From Rhizoclosmatium globosum (taxonomy: Eukaryota > Chytridiomycota > Chytridiomycetes > Chytridiales > Chytriomycetaceae): a stretch of DNA of 64,000 bases. Under the pieces are notes generated by a model. That model was not told the origin of the DNA. It made no database searches and was given only the letters and a program-made list of their open reading frames with translations. This document shows positions 17,003 through 40,804 of this stretch, one piece after another. The number at the start of each line of letters is the position of its first letter. The first letter of the stretch is position 1. A program made the translations under genes and the position numbers. The stretch lies in contig MCGO01000015.1 in the NCBI GenBank assembly GCA_002104985.1, forward strand, positions 124,001-188,000, written 5' to 3'.

Positions 17003-18762
17003 TCACTTCTTTTCACTTGTCACAGCGCTCGTGGTGGTAACGTCGGCTGCAGAACCAACAACTACTGCCGCTGTCACATCAGTTGGTACGGGAGCTGCAG
17101 TTACAACGGGTGGTAACCATTCCACTTCCATACCAGGCTTACCCTCTACTCTGGTGAAAAAGAAGCTCCATAACCACTCACTAAATCCAACCATCTGCCT
17201 CGTCGCCTTCTTTACCATAGCCATTGCTCTTTGTTCCATATTGTCCACAACGCCTGCTCCAGCTGTAAGCCACCATCCAGCCCGCGCTTCCGCCTCAACT
17301 CTTCTGGGAGCTCCAAGAATTGCCGTGTAGAAATGCCTCAACAAAAGGCGGTTGAACAATTCAATGTCTTCATGATTCAATGCATGTCCACGACCTTCAA
17401 ACACAACTAATCGAGCCCCAAGCATTTTCGCCAAATTCCATGAAGTCCGCAAGTGAACAAGAGCGTCTTCGGTTCCATGCACAACCATCGCCGGAATCTT
17501 GCTCCTCAAAAAGTAATTCTTCAGGTCCATGAGACGTTCTTTGCTGATGTTGAAGGCAAGCATTCCACGCATCTGTTTTATTGCACTGATGAAGCTTTGT
17601 GGTGGTCTGCTATCAATTCTTCCACCATGAAAACCGAGCATGTATTCGAGGTTGCTTGTGTATCCAGAGTTTTCGGGGGCAGGCAGATTCAGCCATCGCC
17701 GAGAGTAGAGGAAGAAGGGCATTAAATTTTTGGGCTTTGCGAGGCCGAGGAGGATTTTGGTGAAGGAGGAGAAAAGCCAAGGAATATGTTTCATGGGTGG
17801 AAGTGCACGGGATGCAGTTGTTGATGTAAGAGTAAGGGAGTCGACTCGAGACGGGGCCAGTAGAGCAAGTTCTTGTGCAATCTATTGTAGAATGTTAGAA
17901 AATGTGTTGTTTCAGTACTCAAGGACTGCGATCAAAAGGGTTTCATTCCCGTCCACAGAATCACCATCGTCCATATATCAGTCATTTCATGTTCTTGAAG
18001 AAGACAATGGTCATGATTCAAAGAACTCACCATTCCACCCATGGATACTCCAACGACGTGTGCCTTTTCCCAACCGAGTTGATCAAGTAGCTCTACAGCA
18101 TCAAGAGCCATATCCCTCATTTCAAATCCAGAATCAGGAGTAGAGGAAAAGCCAGAGCCTCTGTTCTCGTAGATGCAGACTTCGAAATCGCCATGTCTCC
18201 CAAAAAACTCTGTCTGAAAGCGCCAATTGTCACATGAACCTGCCCAACCAGTAATAAACAGAACTTTATGTGATCCATGACCATGCAACTCGTGATAGAG
18301 ATCCACAGGGGCACCACGAGATTGAGCAACGGTTGTTAGGACCTTTGTGACGTATTCATCTTGATGCAAGATTCTTCGCTGTTGCAGGTAGTTGTACGGA
18401 GGAGTAGGTGGTGGCTGGTGATCGGGAGAAGGGGGTAAAGGAGAGTCTGAGTTCGCATCTGAAGAAGTTGTCGCAGTAGTTGTTGTTGTGGACAGAGACT
18501 GAGCGGGCGATGCAGGCACGTCAAACAAGCGAGAGGCCGTCCGAGGCAGTCCCCGACCCACGTGGAAATCGCGGCTTTGGAGATTGAGCTGACTCAGCAG
18601 CGCCGCCGACGGAACAAGCGCAAGACCCGGCGCACGGCCCGCGATCGACGGCGCACGCCAAACGCTCCGCCGGAACAGCCCTCCATTCTGATTGGTCAAC
18701 GCACTTGAAAGAACACTCGGATTGCTGCCGCGTCGCTGCATCGTAAGCAGTGAAGAGGCCAT
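17003..18762 (-). CDS. alpha/beta hydrolase, probably mitochondrial
   Basis: Two exons (18762-18031 and 17881-17003) around a 149-nt intron give 536 residues. The first about 80 residues are rich in Arg/Ser/Ala with no acids (MASSLLTMQRRGSNPS, FRRSVWRAPSIAGR), a typical mitochondrial targeting sequence. The hydrolase core follows: VLFITGWAGSCDNW (oxyanion region), CIYENRGSG, and the nucleophile elbow GVSMGG, split by the intron right after it. The acid strand region is AMVVHGTEDALV and the catalytic His is in FEGRGHALNHED. The C-terminus has a Trp/Phe-rich amphipathic stretch and a Val/Ala/Thr tail. Substrate unknown. Confidence 0.75.
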
Positions 18763-18881
18763 CAGCGATTGGTGTGTCGTTGCACGTTTTTTTCAAGAAC
18801 CAAAAACACGTGTTACAAAATGGGCCCAGAAGAATCTTCTCAGACACCAACACCAAAAAAGTATAAAATGATTCATCTACT

Positions 18882-21800
18882 TTATTCTTCTGCTTCGATT
18901 CCATCTTCCCACAAATCAAAAGAACCCCCTTCAGTGTCAGCGGCAGCAGCAGATGATTCCAACCTCAAGAGAACTTCTCGCACAAACTCAGCATTATCTC
19001 TGAGGCTTTTGAAATCTGGAACGACTTTCAGCTGTAATAAGAGCTCAACAAGACCCTCGCTTCGTAATGACGCTGACAAACTAAGAGCATCATTTCCTTC
19101 CAAATCCACAATGTTCACATCCGCCCCATTTTCCATCAAAATCCGAGCGACGTAAGGAATATTCAATTTGCAAGCCATATGCAACGGACTGACACCATCC
19201 ATGTCTACAGCGTTCACGAGAGCGCCGAAATTAATCAACAACTTGATGAAGTTTGCTTTTTCTTGTTGAGTTCCCTCAGCCCCAACCGCCAAATGTAGAA
19301 CTGATTTTTGAGTATTTGTTGGCACAGCTTGAACATTTGCTCCATTCTCACAAAGAATGCGCGTTGAATCCAAATCGCTCCTCTTCACAGCAAAAAGCAA
19401 GGCGGTCCATCCGTCAGTTGACGTTGCTGAATTAACGTCGGCTCGATTTTCTATCAATTTGGCAACACAACTTGAATGGCCATTCTCAGCAGCATAGTGA
19501 AGCGCCGTTTTGTAATCTGCATCTAGGGAATTGACATTCACAACTCCCGTTTCGAGAATTAATTCCATAATTTCCTTATGGCCTGCGTTGGAAGCTATAT
19601 GCAGAACTGTGCGATTTTGTTCATCAATTACCCCAATCTGAGCTCCATTTTCCAACAATAGCTCAAATGCTTTTGTGCGTCCAAAATGAGCTGCAAGTAA
19701 CAAAGGATTCCAACCTCCAAAATCGCCAATTCGTCCAGGTTTTACCACCATATCCAGCCGAGCGCCAGCGTCCAAAAGAACTCGTATTACTTCTAAATGA
19801 CCATGCCAACAGGCAATATGAAGTGCGGAAAACTCTTGTTGCAGTGCAACAATAGCATTGACTTCAATTTTCTGCTCAATCAAATATCTAGCAATTTCTG
19901 CATGTCCATTTTGTGCTGCCAAATGAAGCGCGGTAATATCTCCCATTTCTATTTGATAATTGATTTTAGTTTTTGTGGTTACGAACTATCGGAAAACTTA
20001 CCAGTGCGAGCGTTGATGTTTACAAATCCTCCCGACACAAGTAATTTTACAGTTTCCAAGTGACCATACTGCGACGCTTTAGCTAATGCCGCATAATTAT
20101 CGTCACTTCCAAAACCACCATTATCGAAGAGAAACCGAACGACATCCGTGTGTCCATTTTGGGCAGCCAGATCCAAAGGTGTGAATTCAGAGTCTTTGGC
20201 AGCGATGCTGACGTTTGCACCCCTGCAAATCAGTACTTTGACTGCATTCAACAGTCCATTTTGCGCAGCGAGGTGAAGTGGACTCAAATTTGTATTTGTT
20301 ACAGTGTTCACCAAAGCACCAGCTGATATAAGTGCTTCCATGGTCTCAACATGTCCATTTTGGGATGCAAAATGAAGCGCCTTACTTTGATTCAAAGTTG
20401 CAGCATTTGGGTTAGATCCATTGGCGAGCAAAAGGGCAACGACTTTTGTGTCTCCATTTCGAGCAGCCAAGTGAAGTGGCGTCGTTTTGTCTAAGTTGGT
20501 TGCATCGACAAAGGCTCCATGTTTTAGTAATGTTTCAATGGCACCACAATGTCCGTTTTGACTCGCATAATGGAGTGGTGTCTTCTTGGTGCGGTCAGAA
20601 TCAGCGGTATTGATGGCTTTTTGACAGACTTCCTGAGAGAAGAGGAACGAAAAAATCTCAGAATTATAAAACTCAGCCGCGTAATGAAGTATTGAAGCAG
20701 CTTGGCGTCCATTTTTGGACAGAGGATCTGGGGTTTGATGAAATAATTCTTTAACAAGAGATACATCTTGTTTCCAAACCGCAAGCTGAAGAGGCGTCTT
20801 TGCATAAAAAACATTAGTTTTAGCAAACTAAGCTCAAAGAAACTAACCATAGTTTTGCTCAATTCAATCAATTTTTCGTTTCGCTTCATCATTTTGAGAT
20901 ACTCGTAAATGTCGCCTGATGCATAAGCGACAGGAGGTCGACCAAAAGAATCAATGGCGTGGACGTTCGCACCATTCTCGAGCAGAACTTTCACGGTCTC
21001 CAATGACTTTGACCGAATGGCAACATGCAAAGCAGACCTATTACACTCGCCTGCATGTTTATTCTCGAATGGAGTGAATCCTGTGCAATTCACGTCGATT
21101 AATCCCGACTCAATCAGTGTTTGGCAAATTCTTGAAAGACCATGTTTCGCTGCTTCGAATAACGGCGGGGAGAGGAAGTATTTGAACTTAAGTAGTAAAG
21201 AAATAGATGCGCCAGAAGAAACCAGCTGGGAAAATAGCGCCTCGTTTTCGGATGCAATCGCAAACGCTAATGCAATATGTCCATACTTTCTTGCGAACGC
21301 AGAGATGTTTGGAGGGAGCCCCATTTCATCTAAATGAGTATGCCAGTAATTGATGGCATAGAGACTTGAAGTAGGTAACGTAGATGTAATGACGATCGGT
21401 TGTGGTGTTCCCAGGAGAAGATTGATTGCATCATTTTGTAGCGGAGAGTCGGTCGGAAATTGACTGAGAACCGACGCCAAAATGTCAAGGCAATTAGCGG
21501 CGATGTGCTTGTTACAAGCGGCTGTGTCCACATAGAAGGCTTGGTTTGTACATCTGTGTGGGTTCGTGAAATAATCCTTGACGCTCTTATGAATCACTGA
21601 AACTCGAGAATCAGTGATTTTGAGAATCGAGCGAAACTATTAGAATGGTTAGGTATGGATTGTATAAATATTAAGGAACAAACCTTGGCGACCAACAAGG
21701 CGACATCAACAATATTGATTCCTGCTATGGCACTCAAGCCTTCAAAGTCAAGAGGTTCGCGAACATTCAAAATAGCACCCATCACTGCTTGATAAATCTT

Positions 21801-24167
21801 TCCTTTAACTTCCTTGGAATCAAGCACTTTGCCTGCAATTGAAGCATACACTTCATCAGGTCCAGCTGCGAATTTTTCGATCTCCGTAAGGGCAGTTTCT
21901 GGTGTGTATCCATTGTCAACAAGAAATTCCATAACAGTTCTAACATAGATAAACAATCCTTCCGATTTATCAACCAGTAGGTACTTGCATGCCAAAACAG
22001 TTGGCGAGAATGGTTCCGTGACACCCCACAGTCGTTTGAAATGATATGAAACTACTTTTTCAATGTCCTCCAGGTTTGTTTCAGTTGTTGGAACAAGTTC
22101 CACAGAGTTTAGGGAAGTAGAGAGACACGAATAAATATCTTGCTCCGGGCGGCCCGTGACAAAGAACTTTATGTTCGATGGAAGAAGTGGGCAGAGATCC
22201 TGCAAGATTGTGAGAAACGTATGGCGTGTCTTGGGATTGATTTCATCCAAGGCATCAATAACAAAAAGGATCGTCTCCTTTGAATCATCGAGTTTGGAGA
22301 CGCCGTCAATGAGTAAACTTTTAAATGCCGCAATTGGATCACTGAGAATCGATTTTGAAGCGGACTCAAGGTCGTTTATCATTTGGAATTCCACATGTTG
22401 CTTGAACGCAGGAAATATTCCGCAGAGATTCCAGATCAGAGTAGAGACTATGGAAATGGGATCGTTTTTGATGTCATCGTTGTGTCGACAGAAAAAGTAC
22501 GCCACAATGAACTTATCATTAGGCAGGAATTGTGTGAGAGCGTAAGAAATGAGTGATTTTCCAGTGCCTGCTCCTCCATAGAGCCACATAAAAGGAGATT
22601 CGTCATGTTTTCCAGCCCAATCACTGACAGCTTCAAGTACCCATTCTCGAGTCCCCTGAACAAATTCATTTGCGTAAGATTCCAGGTCTTTCGCGAAATT
22701 GACAGGTTTAAGCCACTTCTCAAGAGCTGAAATAATAACTTGCGGAGTTATTGAGTTCATATATCGCGGTACTTTCGAACGAATCTGTCCAGCAATTGTG
22801 TTGAAAGCCGATTTGAATTCATTGCTTCCCAATCGAGACGTCTTGAAATTACCGTACAAATGCCCTGCAGTGAGGAGGAACGCGATGGCAAGATGAGATT
22901 CATGCTTATATTTTGACTCATCCTCGTCGTGATCAAACATGTAGGCGGCTGCGAATTTTAATTACGTTATCTCGAATAAATGCTAGACTTACGAATGAGT
23001 GGCCGTTTCAAGTCGCCAGCGAACCGAATCTCACGGGTACAGTTTGCAGACTCCAAATACGGTTTCGACAGACAAACAATCACTGCCTTACACTTTGTGA
23101 GACCGTGCACCATTCCATCATAGATATCAGTCTTCATCTGTTCTCTATCGAGCCAAATAGAAATCCCAGGAAATTCTGTACGTAATGCAACACAAAGATC
23201 ATCCACCTGTTCTTTCGTGTACCATCTGTGTCAAAAACATTAATCAGAAAAACAACTGAATGAAAAGACGTACGAATATGAAATCATCACGTCAAATTCC
23301 TCAAGTATTCTTTTGGATCCAGATTCATTCAATTCTCTTTCGCTTTCACTGCCAGCATTACTTGACGTCTCGTTGATGGAAGATTGTATATATGATGACA
23401 TGGAGTTCAAGTAAGTTTGCTCCTTAACCCGTTCAAGGTAAAGCCGGAATGACTTGACACAAAATTCTTTCACGCGACTATCAGTTAGTACAATTCGTGG
23501 TTCTAATTCGCTTGGCGCAGCTGAAATGGTGTACTTTGTAGAACGAAGACCTTCAATCCCGTCTTCAATCTGCTCCTTGATATGTTTTACTGTGAAATCA
23601 GAGACGCGGATAATGACTGGTGGAAGAGACGATCCTAATTCATAGACAGTCAGCTCTGCAAAGTCAGAGTAGTCAAAGATGGGCTGTTCAGCAGGTTTCT
23701 TGACTTGATCAAGAATCGGACTTAGAAGGCTTCTGTCAGTAAGCATCTGGCGGCGAAGAGATGCAGCAGTAGTGTCGCGATAGAAAACAATGACTTTGAA
23801 GGATGGTTCAAGGTTGAAACTTGTTTGGATCTTGTTTGAGAGCGTTAGATTTGGTAACGATTAACGACGGAGATTCTACCTTCTCTCGAAGTTCCTTTCC
23901 CCTTGAATTACGATCATTGATAAGAATGGCTTCAATGTCAAGGGGATCTGCAAATGATTGGACTTTGACGAGGAGGGGAAACGAGTGGGCCCAGGACGGC
24001 TCCTGCGCAGGACTGAGGACTTCAGCGGCAATATTGGCTGTTTCCTTGTTCAGTGAAGGATTGCTCCTCGAAGGAGTTGGCGGAGACACTGTTGACAGTT
24101 GAGTTTTAGAATCTGCTTCAGTCAAGATGAGCTCCCTCCACAAACCAATAGACTGTTTCTGTCCCAT
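18882..24167 (-). CDS. TIR-NACHT-ankyrin NLR with N-myristoylation-like start (paralogue 1)
   Basis: Seven exons (24167-23880, 23830-23274, 23225-22993, 22948-21684, 21636-20848, 20797-20002, 19948-18882) sum to 1665 codons with every phase matching. The start MGQKQSIG fits the MGxxxS N-myristoylation pattern. Residues about 65-250 form an unrecognised two-part region with strand-helix-strand pattern like ubiquitin folds. TIR is about 275-363: FDVMISYS, GISIWLDRE, VIVCLSKPYL, CTREIRFA (E347 at the NADase glutamate position). NACHT follows: Walker A GGAGTGKS (484-491), Walker B FVIDALDE (about 590), sensor TGRPE (about 624), and the fungal NACHT-end motif VIHKSVKDYF. From about residue 850 to the end there are roughly 17-20 ankyrin repeats (TPLHLAARNG and similar). 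This is STAND architecture: ligand binding by repeats, oligomerisation by NACHT, TIR as effector. Confidence 0.85.
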
Positions 24168-24336
24168 AAGTTAACTGCAGTAATGCGTTGATGAATGGCT
24201 GCGGCCAATAAGTATGGGACTTTGGAAACGGAGATGTGCACAGCCACCTGTGCAGATTTATTTCGGATCACAAAAAAGTCAAACAAATAACAAGCGGGCA
24301 AGCTTGGGATTGGCACTATTTAAGTCTAAAATTGGG

Positions 24337-25600
24337 TTAGCAAAGTCCGCTACTTGTGAGGTACACACCGTCATCTCCAGCTTTTCGCTTCAGATTCTTC
24401 TCGGATGGCTCAACAACGGGAATAATATTGCGAGGAAGTTTTTCAGGCTTTGTAGGCAATGGAGAGTTTCGAAAGTAGCAATGATTCAAGGCATCATACG
24501 CAGAAACTCGTTTGACAGGGTCATACACCAGCATACTCTCCAACAAATCTAATGCATCATTCCCAGCTGCAGTGAAGAGGGTTTGTAAAGGAGTTCGCGG
24601 ATACATTTGGAATTCAAGGCCCTTTTTATCAGGAAGGTCTGAGAAGCCCTATTTGGTTTGTCATTAGCTTTGTTAATTCAAGGAAAACGTTGCAAATAGC
24701 GTACGGGCCAGTCTTCTTCTGTGGGTGTTCCAAGGGCTCGGAAGATAGTGTGAAGTTGTCCCAAGTCTGTGTTTGAGTCTGATGCCAAGTATGGAGCGCG
24801 TAGCAAGAGCTCGGCAAAGATGCATCCAATAGCCCAAATATCAACGCCAGGTCCATAATATTGACCTCCCAACAAGAGTTCCGGTGCTCGGTACCAAATC
24901 GTCACAACGTTTGAAGTCATTGGTTTTGAACAGCTTCCATAATCTCGAGCAAGACCAAAATCCCCCAGTTTCAGCGTACCGTCCCCAGCAATAAACAAAT
25001 TGTTTGGCTTGAGATCGCGATGCTGAATGCACATTTCAGTAACACTGGTTGCCTAGTTGTATATACATACCAAGATGAAGTTCCTATGACAGTGATAGAT
25101 ACCGCGCAGAGTCATAAGAAGCCAAGATTTAACGTCGCCTTATGGAATGGTGTAGGAGCAGATCAGCGAATGGAAGACAGAGTGATAATTCACCTGCATT
25201 GAAGACAACACTCTTGTTTTTGATGATTGCTTCCAAATCTGAATCCATAAGCTCCATTATAATATTCAAGTTTTGTTTGTGCGCAAAGACGTCAATGAGC
25301 TGAGTGAGTAAGCGTCAGCGGCGTTTATGCATGGCATTAGCGCATTTCCCTACATCGACAATGTTGGTATGCTTGAGCTCCTTCAGGCATCTTATTTCGC
25401 GGATTGTAGGAACATCCAGCCCATCCTGATTCTTATTGTTCTTCTTGATCTTTTTGATAGCGACCAGACGCTTTGTTGCCAGTTCCGTGCCTGTGAAACA
25501 GTTAAACCAGAAACCAGGCTTCGAATAGGTAGCACACACCCTTGTAGACGACAGCGAAAGTTCCCTCCCCAATCTTCTCTGCCTTTTGGTACTTTTCCAT
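24337..25600 (-). CDS. CDK7/Kin28-like cyclin-dependent kinase (CAK, TFIIH)
   Basis: Multi-exon minus-strand gene starting at 25600 ([20 protein letters not shown]). Kinase landmarks in order: Gly loop GEGTFAVVY, the VAIKKIKK lysine, the PSTAIRE-equivalent [35 protein letters not shown], the catalytic loop HRDLKPNN (rebuilt across an intron), DFGLAR, the T-loop with [15 protein letters not shown], and [23 protein letters not shown]...[15 protein letters not shown] and the C-lobe order fit CDK7, which phosphorylates the RNA polymerase II tail in TFIIH and activates other CDKs. The C-terminus (ENLKRK-like, [12 protein letters not shown]) is basic. The gene is head-to-head with TAF12 across about 49 nt, pairing two general transcription genes. 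Confidence 0.85.
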
Positions 25601-25649
25601 TTGTCCACTTTTTACGATAGTTTTCAACGACAAACGACAAACGACGACG
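25601..25649. promoter_or_regulatory. compact bidirectional promoter (CDK7-like / TAF12)
   Basis: Only 49 nt separate the start codons of the minus-strand CDK7-like gene and the plus-strand TAF12 gene. Any promoter must be shared or lie inside the coding exons. The gap contains direct repeats of ACGACAAACGAC near 25628-25646. No TATA box is visible. Confidence 0.5.
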
Positions 25650-28195
25650 ATGCCACCTCGTCGTGCACCCGCGGCTGCCCAGCAACAGCAACAACCGCAA
25701 CCAACTGCGCCAGTACCTGAGCCACCGCAGATCGCACTTCCACCCGGCGCTCCGACGCAGCCGCAAAACCAGAATCAAAATCAAAACCCAAATCCAAATC
25801 CAAATGCACAGGCCGCACTCAACCAGTTAAGCCCCTTGCTTTGTCCGTCTCCAATAATAACACATCAAATCAAACCAGGCTCCTCAGCCAGCATCAGCAG
25901 CTCTTGCGCTTGAACGCGGCATCGCCTCAACTCGCTCAAAACAACCAGGCAATCAATCTGCTCCAACAACAACAGCAACAACAATTGGCTCAAAATCCTC
26001 AACTTATTAATATCTTGATGCAAATGAATCAGCGCAACAATCAGCAGGGTGGTGGCGCCCCACAGAATCTTGGACAGCTCCTTGCAATACAACAGGCCAT
26101 GGCTGCCCAGAATATAGCTGCGCAAAATAACGCTGCAAATCCTGGAAATCTGATGAATCAGCTCAGTATGATGCAGGCCCTTGCTGCAAGACAGACGGCG
26201 ATGCAGGCAGCTGCGAATAATGCGAACCAGGCCAGCCTTTTAAACAATAATAATACGGCCGTGAATTCTGGCGCCGCATCTAATGCAGCCAATGTTCCCA
26301 TGCAGCAAATGATGATGAACTTGGGCCAACTCAACCAAATGAATCCAGCTTTTGCTGCCAATCTGATGAACAATATGAGAAATGGTGTCAATCCAAATCT
26401 AGTCGCCATGCTTCAAAATTCCCAGGCACAAGCAGCCATCTCTGGTGGCGCTGGAACGACAAACGATAATCAAACAATGTCCGCATCAAGTCCAGCCCCC
26501 GCGAATCCAGAAAATCCTGCGACACCCGCTGCAGGTGCTAATAATCCAACCACACCTGGTCCGCTTGCTGGTCTTGCTCTCCCCACCATTCCACTCCAAC
26601 AACAACAGCAACCAATCACTCAACAACAAATGATGCAGCAATTCCAACAGCAACAGCTGCAGCATTTGCAGCAGCAGCAGCAGGCCCAACAGCAGCAGGC
26701 ACAGCAACAACAGCTACAGCTTCAACAGCAAATTGCCAACCAACAACAAGCCAACCAACAACAACAGCAGCTTAACCAGCAACTACAACAACCAGGAATG
26801 TTGCAACAACAACAGCAAGGCCCTACTCCCAACGCGCAGCAGCTTGCTGAAAACCGAGCAGGTCTTATCAACCGCCTCCGCTCCATTGTTGAAGCTTTAC
26901 AAAGGCAAAATGCTACGGAACCTGAACGTTTGACGTTGTTGCTCAACCGCCTCGCGACTCAAATGCAAATTATTCAAGTAGAACATCTCTACAAGGTCAG
27001 CACAGGAGTTGTTGTCACGGAGCAGGAGGCTGCTGCCACTCGTAACAGTGTTCAGAACTTAAAACAACAAATTCTCGTTGGACGAATGCGATTGAATCAA
27101 ATTCAGCAACAGCAGCCTCAACAACAGCTTCAGCAAGTTGTCACTCCTGGTCCTATAGTGCCGAATACTCCAATCAGTGCACCTACACCGGTTGAAATGG
27201 CTGTCCCTCACGTCCAGCAACATGCTCTTCTCCAGCAACAACAGCAATTAGCGCTTCAACAGCAGCAACAGCAACAACAACAGCAGTTACAATCGGGTAT
27301 AATGAGACCACATGGGCCTCCACCCTCCATTCCTATCAACCAACAGCCACCTCCAGGTCAGCCAACAACACAACAGCCACCAACAGGAATAAACCCTGCC
27401 GCTCTCGCCTCAATTTTGCAAGCTAATCAGCCTCTTATTCATTCAATTTCTCCGCAACAGTCTCGAAAAGTGTTTGGAGGTCCTGAATCATTTATGGGGC
27501 CAAATGCGCCAACAACTGTTGAAGGGTATCTTGCTACGCGTGCCACGGCGCTTTTACCACCTGTAACCATGGAGGAATCGCTTAATGCGTTGTTGGAAGA
27601 AGATGAAGAGTCTGTTATTGGTGGTGGTGGGCGGCGGCGTGGAAAGAGAAAGATACGGGATCTGGTTGCAGAAGTGGAAGGTGGTGGAAGTGTGCAAGCA
27701 GAAGTGGAAGAGATCTTATACGATCTCGCTGATGGATTCTTGGACCATGTTACTGGGATGGCGTGCAAAATGGCAAAACATCGAGGGGCTTCTGTTGTAA
27801 CTGTAAAAGACTTCCAGTTTCCACTTGGTGAGTTAAATAGTATTTTATCAGCTTTTATTCAACAGTTCATCACAGAACGGAATTGGAACCTTCGTATCCC
27901 AACTTCTTCAGCGGCTGATTCGCTTGCTATGGCGAGATCAGTCTCACGACGTGTTCCCACCGCGAATCATGTTTCACGAATGTTGCATGTTCGACGCCTT
28001 GTTAAAGAAGAACAGGCCGCCATCAATAGGGTTCGTATGGCAGAGATGGAGGCTGCTGCGGAGGCTGCTGCGAAATTAGCAAGAGAGGTCGCAGGGAAAG
28101 ATGAGACCGAAGCGGATGAACCGACATTAAATGAAGAAGGTGCCACTATACACGAGGCAAATGGGGGGAGTCAACCAGCTCTTGCCGTTGTATAA
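25650..28195 (+). CDS. TAF12: TFIID/SAGA subunit TAF12, Gln-rich
   Basis: Exons 25650-25825, 25888-27827 and 27876-28195; 811 residues after removal of a second, in-frame intron. About 600 residues of Gln/Asn/Pro-rich, prion-like sequence precede a C-terminal histone fold: KRKIRDLVAEVE (alpha 1), EEILYDLADGFLDHVTGMAC (alpha 2), KHRGASVVTVKDFQFPLERNWNLRIP (alpha 3 and tail). This is the TAF12 signature; TAF12 pairs with TAF4 in TFIID and with Ada1 in SAGA. The intron at 27828-27875 is 48 nt, has GT-AG ends and no stop, so naive translation adds 16 residues inside the histone fold; splicing restores LERNWNLRIP. The poly-Gln tracts are CAA/CAG mixed. Confidence 0.9.
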
Positions 28196-28341
28196 TATTA
28201 ATAAATAAATTTCGTATCAGTGATGGGTACCAGATAACCCCTTGTCAAAAATCACAAGCAAACTCCAAAGGTTCTATCCCTCACTCTTTTTTCACTCTCA
28301 TCCAAGTTCTAGTATTGACTAATCAGTTCTACAGCTTATAT

Positions 28342-30255
28342 ATGAAAGCCACTAGAGCTTCCTCAAATGCAGTTTCATATTTGAAGCTGAACCTATTGTT
28401 ACTCTGTGCCTTCAGCTCCAGCCTGCCGCACTCGCTACCAACTTCGATCAATCACTCACTTCTAAACTCTACTATCAATACATCGATTCTACTTCAGTCA
28501 CATTCGCGTGATTCCATCCCTCAAACTGGGCCACCGCAGTCCAGCCCTGGTCGTTTCTGTGCTGGTGTCGCCCCTTGTCTTAAAAAAGCGTCAAAGAAAG
28601 TGTACTTTCAAGGAACTGCAGAATATAAACAGGCTCTCGACGCAGAATATAACGTTGCGGCGATTGGACTAAATTCTCCCGCTGCGTTTGTATATCCAGG
28701 CTCTGAATCTGAGGTAATGCAATGAAGCAAGATCTAACCAGCTTGAGCAACAGATTCTGAATCCTCAGAAAATTAGCACTGGATTATATAGCTACAAATT
28801 TTTTTGACTAAAACATTATACAGATCTCGTCTGTTATTCATTGTGCTGCCGCTTTCAAACTTCCTGTGGCCGTGAGGGGTGGCGGTCATTCCTACGCTGC
28901 GCTTTCAATCGTAGACCAAGGAATTGTGGTGGATATGTCTTCCTTCACTTCAATATCGGTTAATACAAAGTCGCAAACTGCTGTTGTTGGAGCAGGAAAC
29001 TGGTTGGGACGCATGTACGTGATTCTTGATAACCATGGTTTCACGCTACCTGGTGGAGATCATCCCAGCGTTGGAGTGGCGGGATGTACTTTAGGGGGTG
29101 GCTTTGGGTTCTTATCACGAAAGTTTGGATTGATGTTGGATTGGTTACTTGAAGTGAGACTAGTGGACGCTAAGGGAAAAGTGAGGGTTGTAAATGCACA
29201 GACCGATAGAGATTTATTTTGGTGAGTGAAATTCTTAGTCGTTGATGAGATACTTACTCACTGCCAATAGGGCGATTCGTGGGGGCGGATCAGGAAACTT
29301 TGGAATCATCACTTCCTTCAAGTTCAAATTGATTCCTATGAAAACGAAGATGCTTACGTACCAAATTTATTGGTGGTCGGCCAACAATTCTGCAACAAGG
29401 CAACAAATACTGTCGGCATATATTGAGCAGACACCAAGCTACCCTGACGACATAACGAGCTCACTTTATACGACGTCTGTTCGTGATGCTATCAGCTTAA
29501 CAATCGTTCGTTGGAATAAGGATTTATCTGACGGAATTATGAACTCGACACTTGCTATGATGCCGCCTATCACCAGCTCAGAAACGAAATATTTTTCAAG
29601 TTACATTGATATGATTTCTGAAGTCTGGTACTATCGAAATTGGACTCGGAAAGATTACCTCGATAAGTCAAAACTGTTTGCTCGAGATTCTTTCTTTGCT
29701 ACATCGTTGTACTCTGAACATTCCCCAAACTCCACAGCTTCTAATGTAATAAGTAGCAAGAGTTTAAACCTCGCGAAAAGTGTGGATGCCTTTCTGGCGA
29801 CAGGAAGTACATACTTGGGGAGCATTCAGTTGGATACGTGGGGAGGTGCGATTAGCAAATCTCACAAAAACGTAACCAGCTTTATTCATCGCGGAAATTA
29901 CATCAGTTATCAAGTCTGGACCAGTGTGGACAAGAATGGGACTGAAGGCCCGAAGGCATTTGTCAACTCGTGGCGGCAGTCTATTGCTCCTTTTGTAAAT
30001 CAAGAAGCATATCAGAACTATATGGATGTGCAGCTGCCTCAAGAAACCTATTTTGGTTCTAAAAACTTACCGATCTTGAGGAATGTGAAGAAACGTGTTG
30101 ATCCAGAGAATCTGTGGGATAAAGGAGGAATAATTGAACCCACACTCGGAACTTGCGGTGGAAAAAGCACAGGAAATGGGCTCTGTGTGATGGTTGGTCA
30201 ATGCTGCAGCAATGAAGGTGAATGTGGAATGGGTCCTTCTTTTTGTAGCTTTTAA
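28342..30255 (+). CDS. BBE-like FAD-linked oxidoreductase with C-terminal CBM18
   Basis: Three exons, 28342-28713, 28824-29221, 29271-30255; 584 residues. An N-terminal hydrophobic stretch (LKLNLLLLCAFSSSL) indicates secretion. The FAD domain has VAVRGGGHSYA, whose His normally binds FAD covalently, then GDHPSVGVAGCTLGGGFGF and AIRGGGSGNFGI. At the place of the second (Cys) covalent link of bicovalent BBE enzymes there is a His (DHPSVG), so mono-covalent flavin is expected. The berberine-bridge C-terminal segment is NLWDKGG. After it comes a hevein-like CBM18 module with eight cysteines (CGGKSTGNGLCVMVGQCCSN...CGMGPSFC) that binds chitin. Likely a secreted oxidase acting on chitin-derived or other oligosaccharides. 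Confidence 0.85.
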
Positions 30256-30394
30256 TACTCAGTAATTGCATTGCGTTTTGCATAATACTTATTATTTGGT
30301 TATGTGTGTGCTGACAGCTTGGAACTGAGGAAAAAAGCAGCCAAAGTTTCTTTTTCGAAGTCCACCCACTTTGTGCCGCACTCAATACTTACCA

Positions 30395-33300
30395 ATGCTG
30401 GCAACAGTCTCCGAAGAAAGGCGTGATCCTCAGAATGATCCGAATGATGATGGTAAGCAAATCCCTCTCAGTTCTTCTTGTTGCGCACTAAGTCAATGTC
30501 TTGCGGACTTACTTACACTGTTCTTACCTTGTTTAGATGATGATGCACACAATGAAGGAATGCCAAGCATCCAGGCAGTACATCGTAGAGTCCGCGGACG
30601 GAAGGGTGAGTCTATCGATAATGGGGACTCAATTGACCCAGATTGCTCGAAGAACTTGATCTCGATCACCGGGTCCTTCCGCACGCTGACGAAGGTACTA
30701 CGTTGTACCTTTCATTGGTCCTGCTCTTCTTTGCTGACATTCAATAACCCAAAGATCTCCTTGCTGTCGGCAGACACAATCACAATTACCCACTAAAAAT
30801 CAAAGTCGTTAAACACTTGGATCCTAACGACTATGAACTACTCTATGTGAATAAGTCCATGAGAGGACGGGACCTCAAGGCTCTGGTTTGTTTTTGCTCA
30901 ACTTTTGGGCTTGCACACTCAATTATCATTACCAACAGATCAAAAGTGTCTTTGAGCTTGAAGACTCTTTCAACGTTCTCATATTTTACCTTATGGTCAC
31001 TTCCACTGGGATTAAACGTCGGATGCTGACGGATCGTGGCCGTGTCGCTCCCATTCTTGCTGATTTCGATGAACCTGCCGAAAAGCCTGCCTTCGACTTC
31101 GCCAACTTTGTGGAATTGTCTGTTGCTCAGGGAGGCTCTAGAGTTGTGGTAATTCGAATCTTCAATCTCACAATTGACCACTTGAAACAACAAGTTCGTA
31201 ATATTCTCTCACCGACCCAAGCGTTAACGATTAGTTTAGATTGAAAAGTACTTTGAGGTGAAAGGAACGGAGTACAAGATTCTCGCCGCAGAATCTGAGT
31301 TATCACCTAAAATTGCGGTGGAGCAAGCCACACTCAAAGACTTATGTATTAATGGATTTCAACTCTATATTGAGCGTACGTTAGCTGCAACTACAGTTTC
31401 TCGAAAGCCTTCAGTGAAGCAAGCTCCTCGTATGGTCAAGCATGTGAATTCGATCGATAGCGACGACTTTGATGTGATGCTTTCTTATTCATGGTCCACT
31501 AAAGATCAAGTCTTTGATTTACATGATGCTTTGATTGAGACCTTGCCTGGAATCCGTGTTTGGGTCGATCGTGACGAAATGAATGGAAACTTAAACGAAT
31601 CAATGGCTCGTGGTGTTCTCAAGAGTACCGTTATCATCACGTGTTTATCTGAATCGTATCTGGTTAGTCAAAACATAGTCTAATCATAACAACTAACCAA
31701 TTCTTGGTCATTCAAAAGCGATCCTGGAACTGCAACAAAGAAATCAATTTTGCCGATGAAAACAAGAAACATTTAATTCCAGCGTATATGTTTGGATCTC
31801 TAAGCTTTGACCAGATACAAGAGTTAAAACACTCGCAAGATCTCTCAGCGCCCTTCATGATTACTGCTGGGAAATTACATTCTGACTTTGGCCTCTCCAG
31901 AAAAGGATCTGTGCAATTCACTGAATGTGTAAAGTTGATCACCGACGAACTCCGGATTTTGATTCCGCGTTTCCGAAGCGTGTCAGAACAGACGGACATC
32001 GTCCCAGCTGTGTACGTTCCTGAAGACCCTATCAGAAAGTGGACTGACCCTGTCGACTTCACTGCTGATCTCGAAAACTACAAAGAAGATTTTGTCGAAG
32101 GAACTCGTGAATGGTTTGGTCATGAGGTCCAAGAATGGATCACCAAGCATGACGAGTCTCACGTAATGTGGGTAAATGGTGCAGCCGGAACTGGAAAGTC
32201 TTTACTTTCCTATTACATTGTTACCCACCTCCCTTCTACCAACTTCATAACATCAGTGTACTTCTTCTGTCGTCACAACGATGACGAAAAAAACGATCCT
32301 GCGCATGTGGTTAAAACTCTTGTCTGGAAGCTTTGCGAGCAATTTGACTCATTTCGAAAATATGTGGACCTTGTTTTGACGGACGACAATGACGCTGTAA
32401 AAGGTGGTCGCTCTACAATCTTGAAAAATCCCTACAGGGCATTCGAGCAAGTCATAGTTGATGGTCTAAACAATCTCGAGGAACAAGACCTAGCCAAACC
32501 GCTCATCATCACAATCGACGCACTCGATGAATTAAACCCAAAAACGCGTTCAGTGATCCTTCGCATTATTGTCGAGTTATCTCCCAAACTCCCCAAGAAT
32601 GTGAAGCTGTTTGTTACTGGTCGTCCAGAAAAAGACATTTACGATTGTCTCACTAGCATCGGGTCGTTTGAACTTGAACCAACGACCGCCGAAAATATGT
32701 CTGACGTTCGCAAAGTTGTTGTTGACAGGTTCAAGACAATATGGGGTGTTCAAGAACCGTTCTCTGGGCATTTATTGGAGTGCTTAAATCGAGTTGTTCA
32801 AAAATCGGAGGGTGTGTTCATCTTCGTTAAGGTTGTTTGTGAGTATTTGTCAGCTGGTAGTGTGACTCCAGAAGAAGCTTTGGCTGCCATCGACGGATTT
32901 TCATCAGGTCCTGATGATGTGTATGAGGCAATTGCGAAAAGAGTTATAAGGGATGTTGGTCTCAACGTTTATCAAAGTGTGATGGGGGCAATTTTATTTG
33001 TCTCTGAGCCCCTGGATTTGGAGTCATTGAGTATTCTGGCCTCAACTCCATTGAATGATACTGTCAATCTGTTTGATAAGGTGATACTTGGTACTGTAAT
33101 TCAAGTTTTTAATTCTTCATTTAGATGCGCTCTCTTCTCCGAATTGTTGATGGAGATGTTGCAGTTATCCATAAATCTGTTAAAGATTACTTCACAACGG
33201 AACAACGTTGCGATCCAGCCTACTACATTGACTCGGCAAACGCGAATATGCTTCTTGCCACATCTTGTCTCGATATCCTAGCATCACTACTTTCTGAAAA

Positions 33301-34915
33301 TGGGTCAACAATACTTCCCAAGAGTTTTAGATCGCTTGAACATTCTGAAACGTTCACTGCAAACGACAGCGCTTCTGCTGCCGCCATAGGAAAATATGGT
33401 AAACCCATGCCCGGCCCCAAGACGTCCAAGATTCAGCGAGCAACACTAGATTTATCAAACGTTTCAACTGTTGCTCGATACTCTATTCAAAACCTTGTGC
33501 TCCATTTGGATCCATTGTTTTTACCACCAAATATTGAAGATTTCATGAACAAATACGGCTCGGAGGTGTTATTGCACCTTGCTGCACGCAGCGGTGGTAC
33601 AAACGTAGCACTTTGGCTCATTCAAGATCGAAACACTGACATTGAAGCTGAAGATGCTCTTGGAAAATCTCCTCTTGAACTTGCTGTTGAAAACCGACAG
33701 GCTGAGATGGCAAAACTTCTAATTGACAATGGGGCCGATACAGAATCATGCGACTCTGTTGGCTGGACTCCTCTCCATTGGGCAACTTGGAACAGTCAAG
33801 CTGACTTAGTCAAAGTCATTCTTGCAACAAAGCCCAACGTGAATGCCGTAAGTAAGCTCGATCGCACTCCTTTGCATATTGCTGGATGGCATGGGAATAT
33901 GGAAATTGTAAAGATGCTCATCAAAGCAGGAGCAAATTTGGAAATTCGGGAGAAGGAGGGCAAAACGCCTTTGATCATGGCTGCTGAAAAGGGACATTTG
34001 GAAGTTGTCACGTACTTGCTTGACATCGGAGCAAATATCATGGCACACGGTATTTGGGGTCAGACATCTTTGCACAGAGCTTCAGAGAATGGGCATTTGG
34101 CTGTTATCAAGCTTTTGATAAAGCGGAATGCCACCGTCCCCATTACAGACTTTTATGGCCGTACATCTGTTTCCACAGCGTCATTTGGAGGACATAAGAA
34201 TGTGATTCAGTACCTTCTTGAAAATGGGGCGTCGTTTGATACTGTTGATGCAAAAGGCATGACACCCCTACATGAAGCGGCAAAGCAAGGGCATTGTGAT
34301 GTAGTAGAGTTCTTATTGGAAAATGGTGCAAATGTCCTGACTGAAGATCAAGAAGGTCGTTCCCCACTATATATTGCTGCACTTGGATGCTACAATGATT
34401 GTCTGCAAATACTCATCAAGAATGGAGCTAAAATCAATGAACCAAATCAATACGGAGAACCACCTCTGTTTTTGGCTGCTATGAGCGGATTTCTTGACGT
34501 TGTACAAGTATTGCTGGAGTTTGGTGCAGATGTCAGTGTTACTAACGAGAATGGAGACACGCCATTGTATGTGGCTGCATCTGTAGGACTTAAGAGCATT
34601 GTTGAGGTGCTGGTACAGAAAGGTGCAGATGTGAATTCAAAAACAAAAAGCAAAGATACTCCATTACAAGCTGCCTTACGCGGGGGCCATCAAGAAGTTG
34701 CTCAGTTACTTCGGGACTATGGTGCAAAAGAGGAAATGGAATATCAAGAAGTGGGTCAAGAAGAAACCCCCAAAGTAGCGCCAACTCATCCCAATGGGGA
34801 AGATGGCATTCAAGAAAATGTAATACTCAAAGATATTGGAAAGAAGAAAATGAAAGGACCTGTCAGATTTGGAAATTCTGGAGAATCTGATAGCAAAAAA
34901 TGTGTGCTAATGTAG
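30395..34915 (+). CDS. TIR-NACHT-ankyrin NLR with C-terminal CaaX box (paralogue 2)
   Basis: Seven exons (30395-30452, 30537-30605, 30755-30885, 30939-31193, 31240-31662, 31719-33080, 33125-34915) sum to 1363 codons. Same order as paralogue 1. The N-terminal ubiquitin-like-looking region is at about 50-220. TIR is about 248-335: FDVMLSYS, GIRVWVDRDEM, VIITCLSESYL, CNKEINFA, with E320 at the NADase position. NACHT has Walker A GAAGTGKS (466-473), Walker B TIDALDELN (about 580) and VTGRPEKD, then AVIHKSVKDYF. About 12 ankyrin repeats follow (WTPLHWA, RTPLHIA, MTPLHEA). The last residues, SDSKKCVLM, form a CaaX box with Met at X and lysines before it, as in Ras-type farnesylated proteins. The first two exons have no counterpart in paralogue 1; the junction 30606/30754 is the least certain. 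Confidence 0.85.
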
Positions 34916-37900
34916 GAGTAGGAGGTGAACAGAAAATCAAAAAATTAGAAGATACAATACAAGAAAAAATAAATGGGCATAGATGTTATTTACCTTTTCT
35001 TTTATATGCCTTGTGAGATAGGAAATTTATTCAATAATCGCAAAACAGAACATAATAAAGTTCCATTGGAGAAGGGAACTAAGTGCCAAGTGTACATTTT
35101 GTTGCTTTCCAAATTGAAGATGTTCTTACGAGGTTTTCCGCGTATTCTGATGTTCTTCCACCTTTAAATGAATGGGACACTGGAAATGAACCAAAACACA
35201 GCGAGCCAAATTGCCATTACCATACTATTCTTCTGCGGATCTTGCAAGAATGGCTGCTGGTTACCCTTGTTTGCACTCAGTTTAACACATTATTTTAAGC
35301 CAGAAGTAAATGTGATACTTTGTATCTCAATTTAGAAGTGGTCAGATGCGGAACCACATAAGAACACTTAAACAATAATGAACCCCTTACTTTGTGGATG
35401 CTTGTTTTTCATTACAAACAGAACATCTAGTCCTTCTTTGGGTTCTATATTGTTTGCCCGTTTATTATTGCACTTATTATGTTCCTTCTTCATATTCTCC
35501 AGATTTCCACCCAGTATCCTTATCTTTCACTCTAATTTATATATTATTAGGTTGAGAATTGCTTTGCTGGTTGTGCAAACATGCTATTTAGGTGGAAACC
35601 TTTAAAGAGGGATCAGAAGGAATTGAGGCGGCATACAGGTGCTAAATCAGTGTGTCAGTTAATCCAAGGAAAAAAAAATCAATGAAACCTACAGTATCGT
35701 TTCCAAACTTTGTTTACAAAATTTTTTAATTCCTTTTAGCAAATTTATTTGTGCAGGACCTTCTCAATTGTTGTGACTGCGTCGTTTCTATTTCTGATTT
35801 GACCCTGATGCAAGTAGCCGCTGAACCTTAAATCCTACTTCTCTACCACCCCCAGCAAACAGGGAACAAACATCAAATCGTAATAACTGTGGTTAGAAGG
35901 AGGGTATTTTGACAGCTTTGTTGATGAAGATTAAACACAAAAATTGTTTGTGCTTCAAACTGACACTATCATGACCACGGTAGCCTTTGGGTAGGCCGCT
36001 TCCACTAAAGAAATAATAACGGCAGTCATTCGTGTCGGCCTTGTTTGAAAATGGGTCCAGATTAGGACTGACCCTTCAAGAACTATCTGCTCTTGTCACT
36101 CCCCCAGCCCCAAAAATGACTACAGACTGAAGTGCAATATAAAACAACACAATGCTTAATTCTAACCTCCTCCTATGAATGTCAAAAGAGGAATCTAAAG
36201 CAACCTGTCAACCCCAACAGAACAATGAAAAACGTCCTGAAGCATCAGAAGAACATGAAAAGTTTTAAACTCAAAGGAAAAAATTGCATTAATCAAAAAC
36301 TGTTGCTCCCTTTTTACTTCAGTCATTTACTCAGCAGCCTGCATCTTTATTTTTCTTGGCTTTTCCAATGGAAGGCTTGCAATTTGCTATATCCCCTGTG
36401 GAATGCTGTGCTTTCCTCTGCTATTGCCATCTCATGCCACTCTATACAGGCAAACATTGTCGCTGGTATTGTGAACATGTGATGGATTTGTTTTAAAGAT
36501 CTCTTTCTGATGTGGTGGCCACTCAGGCTTTTGGATTAGACATAATGTCTTATGAGATACATAAGTTGCGCTTGTTTGTCAGATCTGAGTCCATTGTTGG
36601 TAGAATGATAAAGTTTGCCTGCCTTTAAATTCAGGAGATAAATCTTTAGCCTATGACTTTAAGGATGGGTGAATGATGGTCTTGATAGTCTTGTTAAGCC
36701 ACACATTGAGTTTTTGGATCAGAGTTTGATGCTATTGACTTTGCAACAGCTGACTATGTTGTTGTATTCAACTGAACTGCTCTTCTTATTGGCTTTACAG
36801 AGTGGATTGATTTTGCTCAAATGTGTTCAACCAAATTGCCATCATACACCCCAATCTACAAAGTCCTACAACAGCCTTGACTCTAGAATGATTCTTCACT
36901 TTTGATCAATAGCAAAATTGCTGTCAGGACACTTCCATATGTATGGCAAAAGATGGAATTTGTTGTATGACAGGGTGGCAGGTTCATCAGCATTGTGGAA
37001 CCTTCAGCTAGTTGTTTGTTTGTTGTTTTTTTGCTCACTTTCTATGCTGGCCCAAGCCAAACTTGCTGAACAAACTTCAACTGACAAGAAGGAATCTTAC
37101 GCCTCAATTCTATCATGATTAACAATTTAACTATGTCAAGTGACTTATTTTTCAAGCCAACGTTTACGTTTGCCATTGGAGCATACCTTAGGTTTTCTTG
37201 CCTGCACTACGTCAGACACATGCTGCTGACCCAAATCAGTGAAAAAACCCCTTGTAACATCTGTCTTGCTCTGTCCAACCTGGGCCTTGAGACCAAGCAC
37301 ATCCACAACATCTGGGGCCTCACCACCAAGCACATCATTGTTGAGTAATGCATTGCTGAAGACTAGCTTGAGGGGCTAAAAACTAATCTGACCACCTTCT
37401 ACAACCTGCATACCTTGCCATCCAGAAGTACCTCGAAATACTTGGAATACAATTCATTTTTTATTTTCAATACTCTATATAGTATAAATATAAATATAAT
37501 GTATATATATATAAACAGTTTTTATCAAACATTGACAATTCCAGCAGTTTATATTTAGGTTTCTCAAAGGATTGACATAAACATGGACACTCTGAATTAT
37601 AAAATACAACTATGACAGTTTATGTTTATGTGATCTGGAATTTGTACAAAAGGATGTCGGCAAGCCAATGATGGTGGACAGGGCGAGCGTAGACTTGATT
37701 GGAGTGGTAGATTGTCGCAAGCGTGACAATTCACGCTGCTGTTATCCCTTCGAAAACACTCTCTCCTCGTCAAGCCCACCCAACACTGCTGCAACACTGC
37801 CCTTTGACAACATGGATCTCAATTTCAACAATATTTTCTATATTGGTAAGTTTCTTCTTTATTTTATAGCTTTATAAATAAAAGGCTAAAACAGAGATAA

Positions 37901-38819
37901 ATGCGCAAGCAGAGAATGCTGCAACGTCTTTGTCCTTTTATAACAAACTAAGGCAACTTCTCCAACCTCAAAATACTGCTGGATGTATTAGCAGGGGCAT
38001 TTTGGAACCGCTTTTGGTCCAATCATAACCACTGCCGCAAGTTATCCAAACACCTGTGCCCTTACAGAGCGCTGCCTACTTGCCCTTGCCTATCACCCTT
38101 TCTTCAGCTACTGCACCAAAAATGGTTTGACCTACTCGCTTTCTCTTTTCTTCCTAATAATACAAAAATAGAGTCAAACAACGCCCCTACCCATCAGTAA
38201 TAGTGTTCTGAATCCTTCGCATCTTTCCTCAGTCCAGATTTAGGCACAAACAACAACATAGACGCATTTTTGGCCAGTTTGGAACCTGAACCTGCAACGT
38301 CAAAGCAGTGGATGTGTAACTTGGATGGAGGAACGTTCAGAGTATTTAATTGGATTCCTGACAATGAAACTGCAACCATAGTTGTGTCATCTGTGGGAGT
38401 TATTTTTTTGGTTGAGACATAGAATTGATTTGGATTGTTTGTCTTCTTTTTCGTTTCATAAATATAAGCTACTCTTAGCATAAACTCCAATACTTTGAAT
38501 TTATGAGGATTTAATCAAAAATTCTCATTTATATTTGGGTGGGTATATTTTATGTTTATATTTATGCTTCACGCAGTTTTCAATACAAGATACTAATATC
38601 GATGATCTTAAAGGGGCAAATTGGAACACATTTACTGCTGCGCTGCCATGACTGCTGATGTTCTTGCAAATAATACAAGTAGTAGCCACTTGGGGGCATG
38701 TTAGCCAAACATTGACAGAGACTTTGAAGTAAGACACTCTGTCTCATAAAGGACTCCTTTGATTATTATCTCAAGGAATTTACAGGAATGAAAGGTAATA
38801 CAACTGTTGTTCTGGAGGA
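34916..38819. other. AT-rich gene-poor stretch, no intact gene
   Basis: About 3.9 kb with only short, overlapping ORFs and no recognisable domain. Open frames at 36669-36905, 36918-37118 and 37115-37348 look like scrambled coding remnants (NLGLETKHIHNIWGLTTKHI near 37270-37330) but I could not name them. A pure A/T microsatellite-like patch lies at about 37470-37520. Composition and codon pattern differ from the flanking genes, so this is probably old mobile-element or intergenic filler. Confidence 0.4.
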
Positions 38820-39385
38820 GGGGCAACGTACAATCTCCAATTCAACATGCCTTTGGGATTCCCATCAATCATGACATCAACATTGTGGATTGATTGCCGC
38901 TTCTTATAAGTCTGGAGGGCACGTTGCGAAATCAAGGCGTTTATTTGGCAAATGGCATTTATCCTACTTGGGCAGTCTTTGTCCGAATGATTGCGGCTCC
39001 AATCGGAAAAACAAATAGTAATTACACAATGATGCAAGAATCTGTGAGAAAGGATGTGGAACAGTTGCCTGCGCTTCTTCAATGCTGATGAGGAATTTGG
39101 ACCAGGAATCCAATGTGGTACATTATGATGGCGTTTATAATAATGCATGGCATGATTCTTGACAATGAGGGTGTTGACTATGGGAAAAGTATTCCTCAAG
39201 CCCGAAACATATATTCAAGAAAATTATTAAGCAATGATGAAAACAAAATTCAACAGAAAAAAGCTAAATTTACGTCAGTTTCTGAGTATATGCGTGGAAT
39301 GCTGAAGAAATGGGAACAAGTGAGGAATAAAGCTGCTCATAATCAACTCAGAACCAATCTGATAAATCTCTTTGGATGCAAATGA
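38820..39385 (+). mobile_element. degenerate Harbinger-type (plant transposon) transposase remnant
   Basis: Two frames carry pieces in the right order for the PIF/Harbinger 'plant transposon protein' family. YLANGIYPTWAVFVRMI followed by QESVRKDVEQLPALLQC (38894-39088) matches the family's 'YYLADGIYPxWxxFVKxI ... QExxRKDVERAFGVLQ'. After a stop and a frame change, MWYIMMAFIIMHGMILDNEG (39113 on) matches 'IMxACIILHNMIVEDE'. Upstream, MPLGFPSIMTSTLWIDC near 38848-38900 resembles 'MGFPGMLGSIDC'. Much of the catalytic middle is missing and stops interrupt it, so it is a dead copy. DDE residues are not all identifiable. Confidence 0.65.
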
Positions 39386-40280
39386 GATCATCAAAGTAAC
39401 TGAAGTAATAAAAGAAAAGGGATGAAACAAGTTCATTATGGTTCTTCTCATCATCTTCTCTGAAACAGTTAGACTCTACTTCGCTCTGCACATGTTCCAT
39501 AATTTTTCTTTGCTTAAACACACTTAGTTCCTGGTTGTAACCTTTTGAGAAGAACATTCGTCTTGTACCTGTTGATTGCCATCCCTTGCAAGAGCAACCA
39601 ACGTCTTTCGCGTTTTGGCAAGCAATCAATGAGAGTCTCCCAAGTTTTGGAGAACATTGGATTTCTTGCTCTCAATATTGATATCAGCCTTGTGATGGTA
39701 TTCAGCTTTGTTTGAACACCTTGACCTGCAAGATGATAGGATCAGTAGGACAAACAATAATATTCTCACTAGATTCAATTTAGATTATACAACAGGAGGT
39801 ATATGGGCAGATGGCTTCTTTTTCTCAGTGCTTACAAACCATTTTAGTAAATCCTTCAACACCTCTCAAACTGGCTTAATCTCATTGTACTTCATATTTG
39901 TAGCAAAGGTTTCTTTGTCCCAGCTTTCTGTGTAAGCTGTTTCTCTATTTTCCTTGTTCCACCCCCAGGCAACCATCTCAGATGCATTGGAGTATTGCTG
40001 TTTGTTTTACTTGATGTTTTTGAATGTGGCAGACAGATTTCCATTATTGAGCAGCTGTCTGATTTGCTCCAACAACAGATCTTGGCATACTGTTGCCCAA
40101 AGTTTACAATTGCAAGAACTACTGCTTCAGCATTGTCAGATCAGATAAGAAGGGTGTTGGGTAATGCATAGACTGTTTCCACGTTCCCAAATTCCCACGA
40201 GGGTCAGATCCCAAAGAAAAAGAAGCTACGCTCAGCCACAAAACCAAGAGGGGGAAGGGGAAAGTCGTTGAAGAGGAAAG
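39386..40280. other. gene-poor stretch, no recognisable feature
   Basis: About 900 nt with scattered short ORFs on both strands (for example 39708-39935 + and 39629-39348 -) that match nothing I know. It is flanked by transposase relics, so it may be element sequence too degraded to read. Confidence 0.3.
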
Positions 40281-40282
40281 CA

Positions 40283-40628: not shown

Positions 40629-40804
40629 AGTGAGGATGATTATAGTGATGACGATGATTACGAGAATGTGGAGGAGGTTTGGTAGTTGTTATGGTGAAAA
40701 AAGGAAATCTTCGTGAATGAATCTGAGAAATAATAACTCTATTCCTTTCATCCAACTTTGATTCATCTGGGAATATTCAGGAAATACTGTACACTCAAAT
40801 CAAA

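Follow-up and report, generated by a model that had tools for sequence, protein, structure and literature searches.

Two TIR-NACHT-ankyrin genes of Rhizoclosmatium globosum belong to a genome-wide TIR receptor family with a conserved putative catalytic glutamate

We analyzed a 64-kb stretch of DNA (the window; positions 124001-188000 of contig C57) from the 56.9-Mb, 420-contig assembly of the chytrid Rhizoclosmatium globosum (Chytridiales). It contains two large genes, N1 and N2, which encode a TIR domain, a NACHT ATPase and ankyrin repeats, preceded by a predicted tandem ubiquitin-fold (beta-grasp) region. The analysis indicated that N1 and N2 probably belong to an expanded family of chytrid TIR receptors of the NLR (STAND) type and would cleave nicotinamide adenine dinucleotide (NAD+) when their NACHT domains oligomerize. 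The initial annotation of this DNA had treated the two genes as a pair with an effector that is rare in fungal NLRs; they are not isolated but two members of a TIR receptor family that extends across the genome.

In the genome, at least 94 matches to TIR_2 were found (counted per exon, and hence lower bounds), which merged to 89 loci. For the NPHP3_N type of NACHT, 66 matches merged to 60 loci, 36 of which were preceded by a TIR on the same strand, in two cases at a distance of about 2 kb, and five of the six NB-ARC matches had a TIR 331-339 bp upstream. Because both haplotypes are partly represented in the assembly, these locus counts do not equal gene counts. The alternative TIR profile PF01582 gave 5 matches versus the 94 of TIR_2, and the family is thus of the TIR_2 type; similarly, the NACHT profile PF05729 gave 34 matches versus 66 for NPHP3_N. 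These numbers rule out rarity of such genes within R. globosum. N1 and N2 are ordinary there, and it is this genome that looks unusual among fungi. Of the other effector domains of fungi, such as HET, HeLo and patatin, the search was confined to HET, which had 18 matches in the genome, none of them within 5 kb of a NACHT match. STALD and LSDAT_euk, which are candidate sensors of TIR products, gave no match, but the controls were equally without match, and this result is hence uninformative.

The models of both genes were rebuilt from the sequence. Neither has an end-to-end open frame; each contains six introns, all 12 of which have GT-AG borders and splice cleanly, the single uncertain junction being intron 2 of N2 (149 bp), which was picked among alternatives. 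Judged by their sequences, N1 and N2 are paralogues, with 496 of 1364 aligned protein positions identical (36%) and an identity of 47% in the TIR alone. Searches with N1 or N2 returned no near-identical annotated R. globosum protein, and both may be absent from the public annotation or cut otherwise there. The genes and their exons are the following:

18882..24167, minus strand: gene N1, tandem beta-grasp, TIR, NACHT and ankyrin, 1664 residues, 7 exons (spliced model and Pfam)
24167-23880, 23830-23274, 23225-22993, 22948-21684, 21636-20848, 20797-20002, 19948-18882, minus strand: exons of N1
30395..34915, plus strand: gene N2, tandem beta-grasp, TIR, NACHT and ankyrin, 1362 residues, 7 exons (spliced model and Pfam)
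30395-30452, 30537-30605, 30755-30885, 30939-31193, 31240-31662, 31719-33080, 33125-34915, plus strand: exons of N2

For N1, Pfam scans covered residues 1-1044 as well as exons 6 and 7; for N2, they covered residues 1-979 as well as exon 7. The TIR_2 profile matched N1 with 53.9 bits (residues 277-367) and N2 with 55.6 bits (residues 250-336) at a cut-off of 28, and the NPHP3_N-type NACHT scored 104.4 and 105.7 bits, respectively, at a cut-off of 24.8. With PF05729, N2 reached 37.2 bits, whereas N1 remained at 26.6, just below the cut-off of 26.7. Ankyrin repeats were matched in the scanned residue ranges of both proteins and throughout the C-terminal exons scanned. The scans thus bear out, together with the clean splicing, the proposal in the initial annotation of two oppositely oriented TIR-NACHT-ankyrin STAND genes. 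Its assignment of complete Walker A and B motifs to both NACHT domains agrees with the motifs read directly from the proteins, namely, GGAGTGKS and FVIDALDE in N1 and GAAGTGKS and ITIDALDE in N2. Both proteins hence combine two features of NLR/STAND proteins, a NACHT with Walker A and B and C-terminal superstructure repeats. LRR was not among the Pfam matches of N1 and N2, and NB-ARC reached only 15.2 bits in N2, below its cut-off of 23.5. No near-identical internal repeats were found inside either gene, which rules out fast-evolving sensor repeats in N1 and N2.

22926..23296, minus strand: TIR domain of N1, about residues 275-367, two introns within (Pfam TIR_2, family alignment)
22095..22655, minus strand: NACHT ATPase of N1, NPHP3_N type, about residues 458-644 (Pfam, score above)
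19047..21264, minus strand: ankyrin-repeat region of N1, from about residue 906 almost to the C-terminus (Pfam, repeat check)
31468..31790, plus strand: TIR domain of N2, about residues 248-336, one intron within (Pfam TIR_2, family alignment)
32100..32690, plus strand: NACHT ATPase of N2, NPHP3_N type, about residues 440-636 (Pfam, score above)
33545..34735, plus strand: ankyrin-repeat region of N2, about residues 907-1303 (Pfam, repeat check)

The residue on which an enzymatic role of these TIR domains would depend is a conserved glutamate of the alpha-C helix, E347 in the sequence CTREIRFA of N1 and E320 in CNKEINFA of N2, and the numbering used previously agrees with that of the rebuilt models:

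23030..23032, minus strand: putative catalytic glutamate codon E347 of N1, motif C-T-R-E (protein reading, family alignment)
31740..31742, plus strand: putative catalytic glutamate codon E320 of N2, motif C-N-K-E (protein reading, family alignment)

The 36 TIR-NACHT loci comprise N1 and N2, a frame-broken copy of N1 on contig C26, which was excluded, 27 loci that were read, and six that were not fetched. One of the 27 that were read, L041 (contig C46), is a TIR-NACHT locus by distance (1.9 kb), but its sequence failed to align with the TIR profile of the family and stands outside the count. In all 28 alignable NACHT-linked TIRs, among them N1, N2 and one haplotype copy of N2, the glutamate and a cysteine were invariant. 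Removal of 8 near-duplicates (nucleotide identity of 88-100%) left 20 non-redundant TIRs, with a mean identity of 44% and a minimum of 25%, in which 10 of 129 columns were invariant. In order, these are W, D, M, the motif S-x2-Y-x2-S-x2-C-x2-E, the spacing of which is plant-like, and then P and F. When the annotated proteins P0002-P0005 and P0037 were added, 9 of the 10 columns remained invariant, the glutamate and cysteine columns among them; of the proteins added, P0002, P0004 and P0005 are independent, since P0003 and P0037 are annotated products of the counted loci L036 and L060. Loss of the glutamate in relatives, which the initial annotation had named as a reason for doubt, was hence not observed among the NACHT-linked paralogues or in these three proteins. 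In the alignments, constraint on this residue is evident.

A TIR fold, as proposed previously, was found in the predicted model of the paralogue P0003 (R. globosum BCR33DRAFT_848072), the N-terminus of which is 100% identical to L036 (contig C13) over 86 residues. In profile alignments, the family glutamate is paired with a glutamate in both Cat1 and Roq1 but with a glutamine in MyD88, and the printed alignments show a cysteine three residues ahead that is common to this family, Roq1 and Cat1. Several points limit what this says about NAD+ cleavage. The P0003 model matches NAD+-cleaving and scaffold TIRs equally well (here and for P0001 below, among the matches listed in the fold search, where one domain can fill a list), and the fold therefore does not decide between the two. 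Toll-like receptors also have a glutamate in the same motif. Furthermore, TirB of Dictyostelium keeps the putative catalytic glutamate, and the available passages of a recent preprint report no NAD+ processing for it (PMC13142454), so that a conserved glutamate is insufficient for such activity.

These points would agree with TIRs that are non-enzymatic scaffolds, comparable to those of Toll-like receptors and MyD88, in which case an activated NLR would recruit stand-alone TIR proteins as carriers of its output. There is material for such a system, since 53 of the 94 TIR_2 matches have no NPHP3_N NACHT or NB-ARC downstream, and the open reading frames scanned include proteins with a tandem TIR or a PH-TIR arrangement; MyD88 was also among the best PDB matches, of those listed, by both sequence profile and fold. 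However, MyD88 carries glutamine at the position where all the alignable NACHT-linked TIRs have glutamate, accompanied by the cysteine seen in Roq1 and Cat1, and we consider a scaffold role unlikely. These two proteins, both without NACHT, are L033 (2570-3691), which is PH-TIR, and L025 (5930-7519), which is a tandem TIR-TIR.

Upstream of the TIR, both proteins contain a conserved region, overlooked in the initial annotation, that is predicted to form a tandem ubiquitin fold. In the model of the relative P0001, a beta-beta-alpha-beta-beta-(alpha)-beta topology is present twice, and this model, along with the alignment to relatives, places the region as follows:

23426..23978, minus strand: putative tandem ubiquitin-fold (beta-grasp) region of N1, about residues 64-231, one intron within
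30784..31371, plus strand: putative tandem ubiquitin-fold (beta-grasp) region of N2, about residues 53-215, two introns within

Crinkler-type N-termini of the ubiquitin clan occur in fungal NLRs, according to passages of Wojciechowski 2022 (PMC9815663). The corresponding profile, PF20147, matched neither N1 nor N2 nor any of the scanned relatives, which argues against a Crinkler N-terminus, and each of its 29 genome matches was more than 3 kb away from any TIR or NACHT match. PB1 (PF00564) was matched in one of the 8 sequences scanned, P0005 of Zopfochytrium, and this match was weak (2.1e-4; 21.6 bits, below the cut-off of 23.6). Another annotated protein, P0037 (R. globosum BCR33DRAFT_857744, contig C409), is an apparent fusion of two adjacent receptors, with a second beta-grasp and a truncated TIR stretch after its ankyrin region.

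Taken from their sequences, N1 and N2 are most likely non-self sensors whose NACHT domains would cluster the TIRs for NAD+ cleavage. The ankyrin repeats would detect either a ligand or the perturbation of a self protein, upon which the NACHT ATPase would oligomerize and the clustered TIRs would cleave NAD+ by means of E347 or E320. NAD+ would then fall or a nucleotide signal be made, and the thallus or zoospore might die or cease to grow, in a presumed immune role. The tandem ubiquitin-fold region probably modulates assembly or serves as a binding site for a partner. No particular trigger, be it a parasite, a phage-like invader or allorecognition, is indicated by the data.

The sensor part is exchangeable within the family, being ankyrin in N1 and N2, WD40 at other loci, or TPR on NB-ARC. 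Among the TIR-NACHT loci with long flanks, L040 and L032 had WD40 in Pfam, and L027, L036 and L042 showed WD-like repeats by eye. At L040 (2260-3462, minus strand), the WD40 repeats are near-identical, with a 126-bp unit in 9.6 copies and 81% matches, an hnwd-like pattern. Downstream of the receptor gene at this locus, there are short tandem repeats with a 13-bp unit and its multiples, which translate to HLHQDSTPAIYT-like strings; such strings also occur downstream of the L032 receptor, and the repeats are possibly non-coding satellite. L063 (C146:581900-586900) contains a TIR-NB-ARC-TPR gene with near-identical 42-residue TPR units, and it is the one locus read of the five NB-ARC loci with an upstream TIR, the others being on C92, C62, C31 and C59.

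In the window, N1 and N2 are arranged head to head, separated by three genes that encode a kinase, which is CDK7-like as judged by eye, a TAF12-type TFIID protein and a berberine-bridge-type flavin adenine dinucleotide (FAD) oxidase. Because of these intervening genes, N1 and N2 are not a promoter-sharing NLR pair. A CDK7-like gene is expected to be essential. The second haplotype is represented by contig C26, which aligns with the window over 15.8 kb at 98.4%. In its copy of N1, 21 codons contain single-base gaps, and one of these adjoins the glutamate codon, whereas its copy of N2 has none. In gap-free codons, the haplotypes differ by 52 synonymous and 35 non-synonymous changes in N1, part of which may be assembly error, and by 6 and 6 in N2. 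In the C26 copy of window positions 18600-25900, the single-base losses are clustered over N1 and the CDK7-like gene, and none is present in N2 exons; assembly error, as a local low-quality consensus, is therefore likelier than decay of N1, and decay of the second N1 copy was set aside. The previous statement that the region is free of frame errors thus holds for N1 and N2 in the window, both of which are intact, but not for the C26 copy of N1, whose frame is broken, likely by assembly error.

These data bear on two further explanations. One is that the multigene family is drifting and has no function at present, in which case the intact frames would belong to recent copies and the C26 copy of N1 would represent decay. 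The single-base gaps, including that beside the glutamate codon, would suit it, but their recurrence in the CDK7-like gene fits an assembly-error pattern, the TIR columns named above are invariant despite the mean identity given there, and N1 has a relative at 96-99% identity in R. hyalinum; we hold drift to be highly improbable. The other is that the pair serves development, or self/non-self recognition between chytrid individuals, rather than parasite defence. Here, the differences between the N1 haplotypes could be a sign of recognition, and several characterized fungal NLRs act in heterokaryon incompatibility, although the prevailing view is that the majority of fungal NLRs have no part in allorecognition (PMC12881547, in passages that also describe the hnwd repeats). 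However, N2 is near-identical between haplotypes, the N1 differences may be inflated by assembly error, and the relative in R. hyalinum (98.8% identity over 241 residues and 96.2% over 683) indicates that N1 is not a fast-diverging locus, which makes this role improbable as well. Beside N2, the window contains an AT-rich block (34000-48000; GC of about 39-41%) that resembles a stretch of repeats or mobile elements and encodes a DUF7869 protein (41635-43071, minus strand); the haplotypes differ there by insertions and gaps from 35320 to about 37100, where the comparison ends.

TIR domains in NLRs are known from plants, bacteria and Chytridiomycota (PMC9815663), TIR occurs in fungi (PMC7075850), and there is a small group of fungal TIR-NLRs (PMC10197012), as stated in passages of these papers. 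In the excerpts available, a 2014 survey had no NLR matches in chytrids (Dyrka 2014, PMC4986451), and the 2026 preprint, which used EukProt, lists almost no fungal TIRs, all of them from R. globosum, with very few known earlier (PMC13142454). A further study assigned 88 xenologs in 22 gene trees to R. globosum, and the term "TIR" is absent from its main text (PMC11291939). Chytrid TIR-NLRs are thus already known, and we did not find a description of the tandem beta-grasp-TIR-NACHT-ankyrin layout or of the scale of the family in the titles, abstract beginnings and passages of the open-access literature searched. Reports of genuine TIR domains in fungi are few, yet more than half of the NACHT loci of this one chytrid assembly have one upstream. 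R. globosum hence provides a fungal system for asking if TIR-NADase immunity, in the form known from plants and bacteria, also operates beyond these two groups, and for studying how TIR is related to HET as found elsewhere in the fungi. The tandem ubiquitin-fold module that precedes the TIR is a putative regulatory addition that lends itself to testing. Tentatively, we suggest as a possibility that this early-diverging fungus has a TIR repertoire of plant scale (TIR-NACHT-ankyrin, TIR-NACHT-WD40 and TIR-NB-ARC-TPR), with TIR rather than HET, HeLo or patatin as the main NLR output, and that one branch carries its own PB1/ISG15-like tandem ubiquitin-fold module, which might control TIR filament assembly or be part of the signal.

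The closest known systems are TIR-NLRs predicted in Chytridiales (P0001, P0002, P0004, P0005 and P0031, from Rhizoclosmatium, Podochytrium, Zopfochytrium and Chytriomyces), all of which, like N1 and N2, combine TIR with an NPHP3_N-type NACHT. In the three whose N-terminus is not cut short (P0001, P0004 and P0005), this region aligns with the tandem beta-grasp of N1 and N2. The glutamate is present in four of the five, the exception being P0001, whose gene model lacks the exon that bears it. The sensor is WD40 in the Podochytrium, Zopfochytrium and Chytriomyces proteins, whereas it is ankyrin in N1 and N2. Plant TNLs (Roq1, RPP1, RPS4 and RUN1) carry NB-ARC and LRR in place of NACHT and ankyrin, and N1 and N2 have the additional tandem beta-grasp before the TIR. 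The fungal HNWD proteins (HET-E/D/R of Podospora) resemble N1 and N2 in having an N-terminal TIR-related domain, a NACHT and a repeat sensor, but they combine HET with WD40, whereas N1 and N2 have a true TIR_2 with ankyrin and neither HET nor WD40 in the Pfam scans; the near-identical WD40 units of HNWD are matched by the paralogue L040 and not by the ankyrin repeats of N1 and N2. Finally, the bacterial CRISPR-associated TIR protein Cat1 was the best PDB profile match (8.6e-06) and has the same S-x2-Y-x2-S-x2-C-x2-E spacing, but it comprises 263 residues, is filament-forming according to its entry title, and lacks the NACHT and ankyrin parts of N1 and N2.

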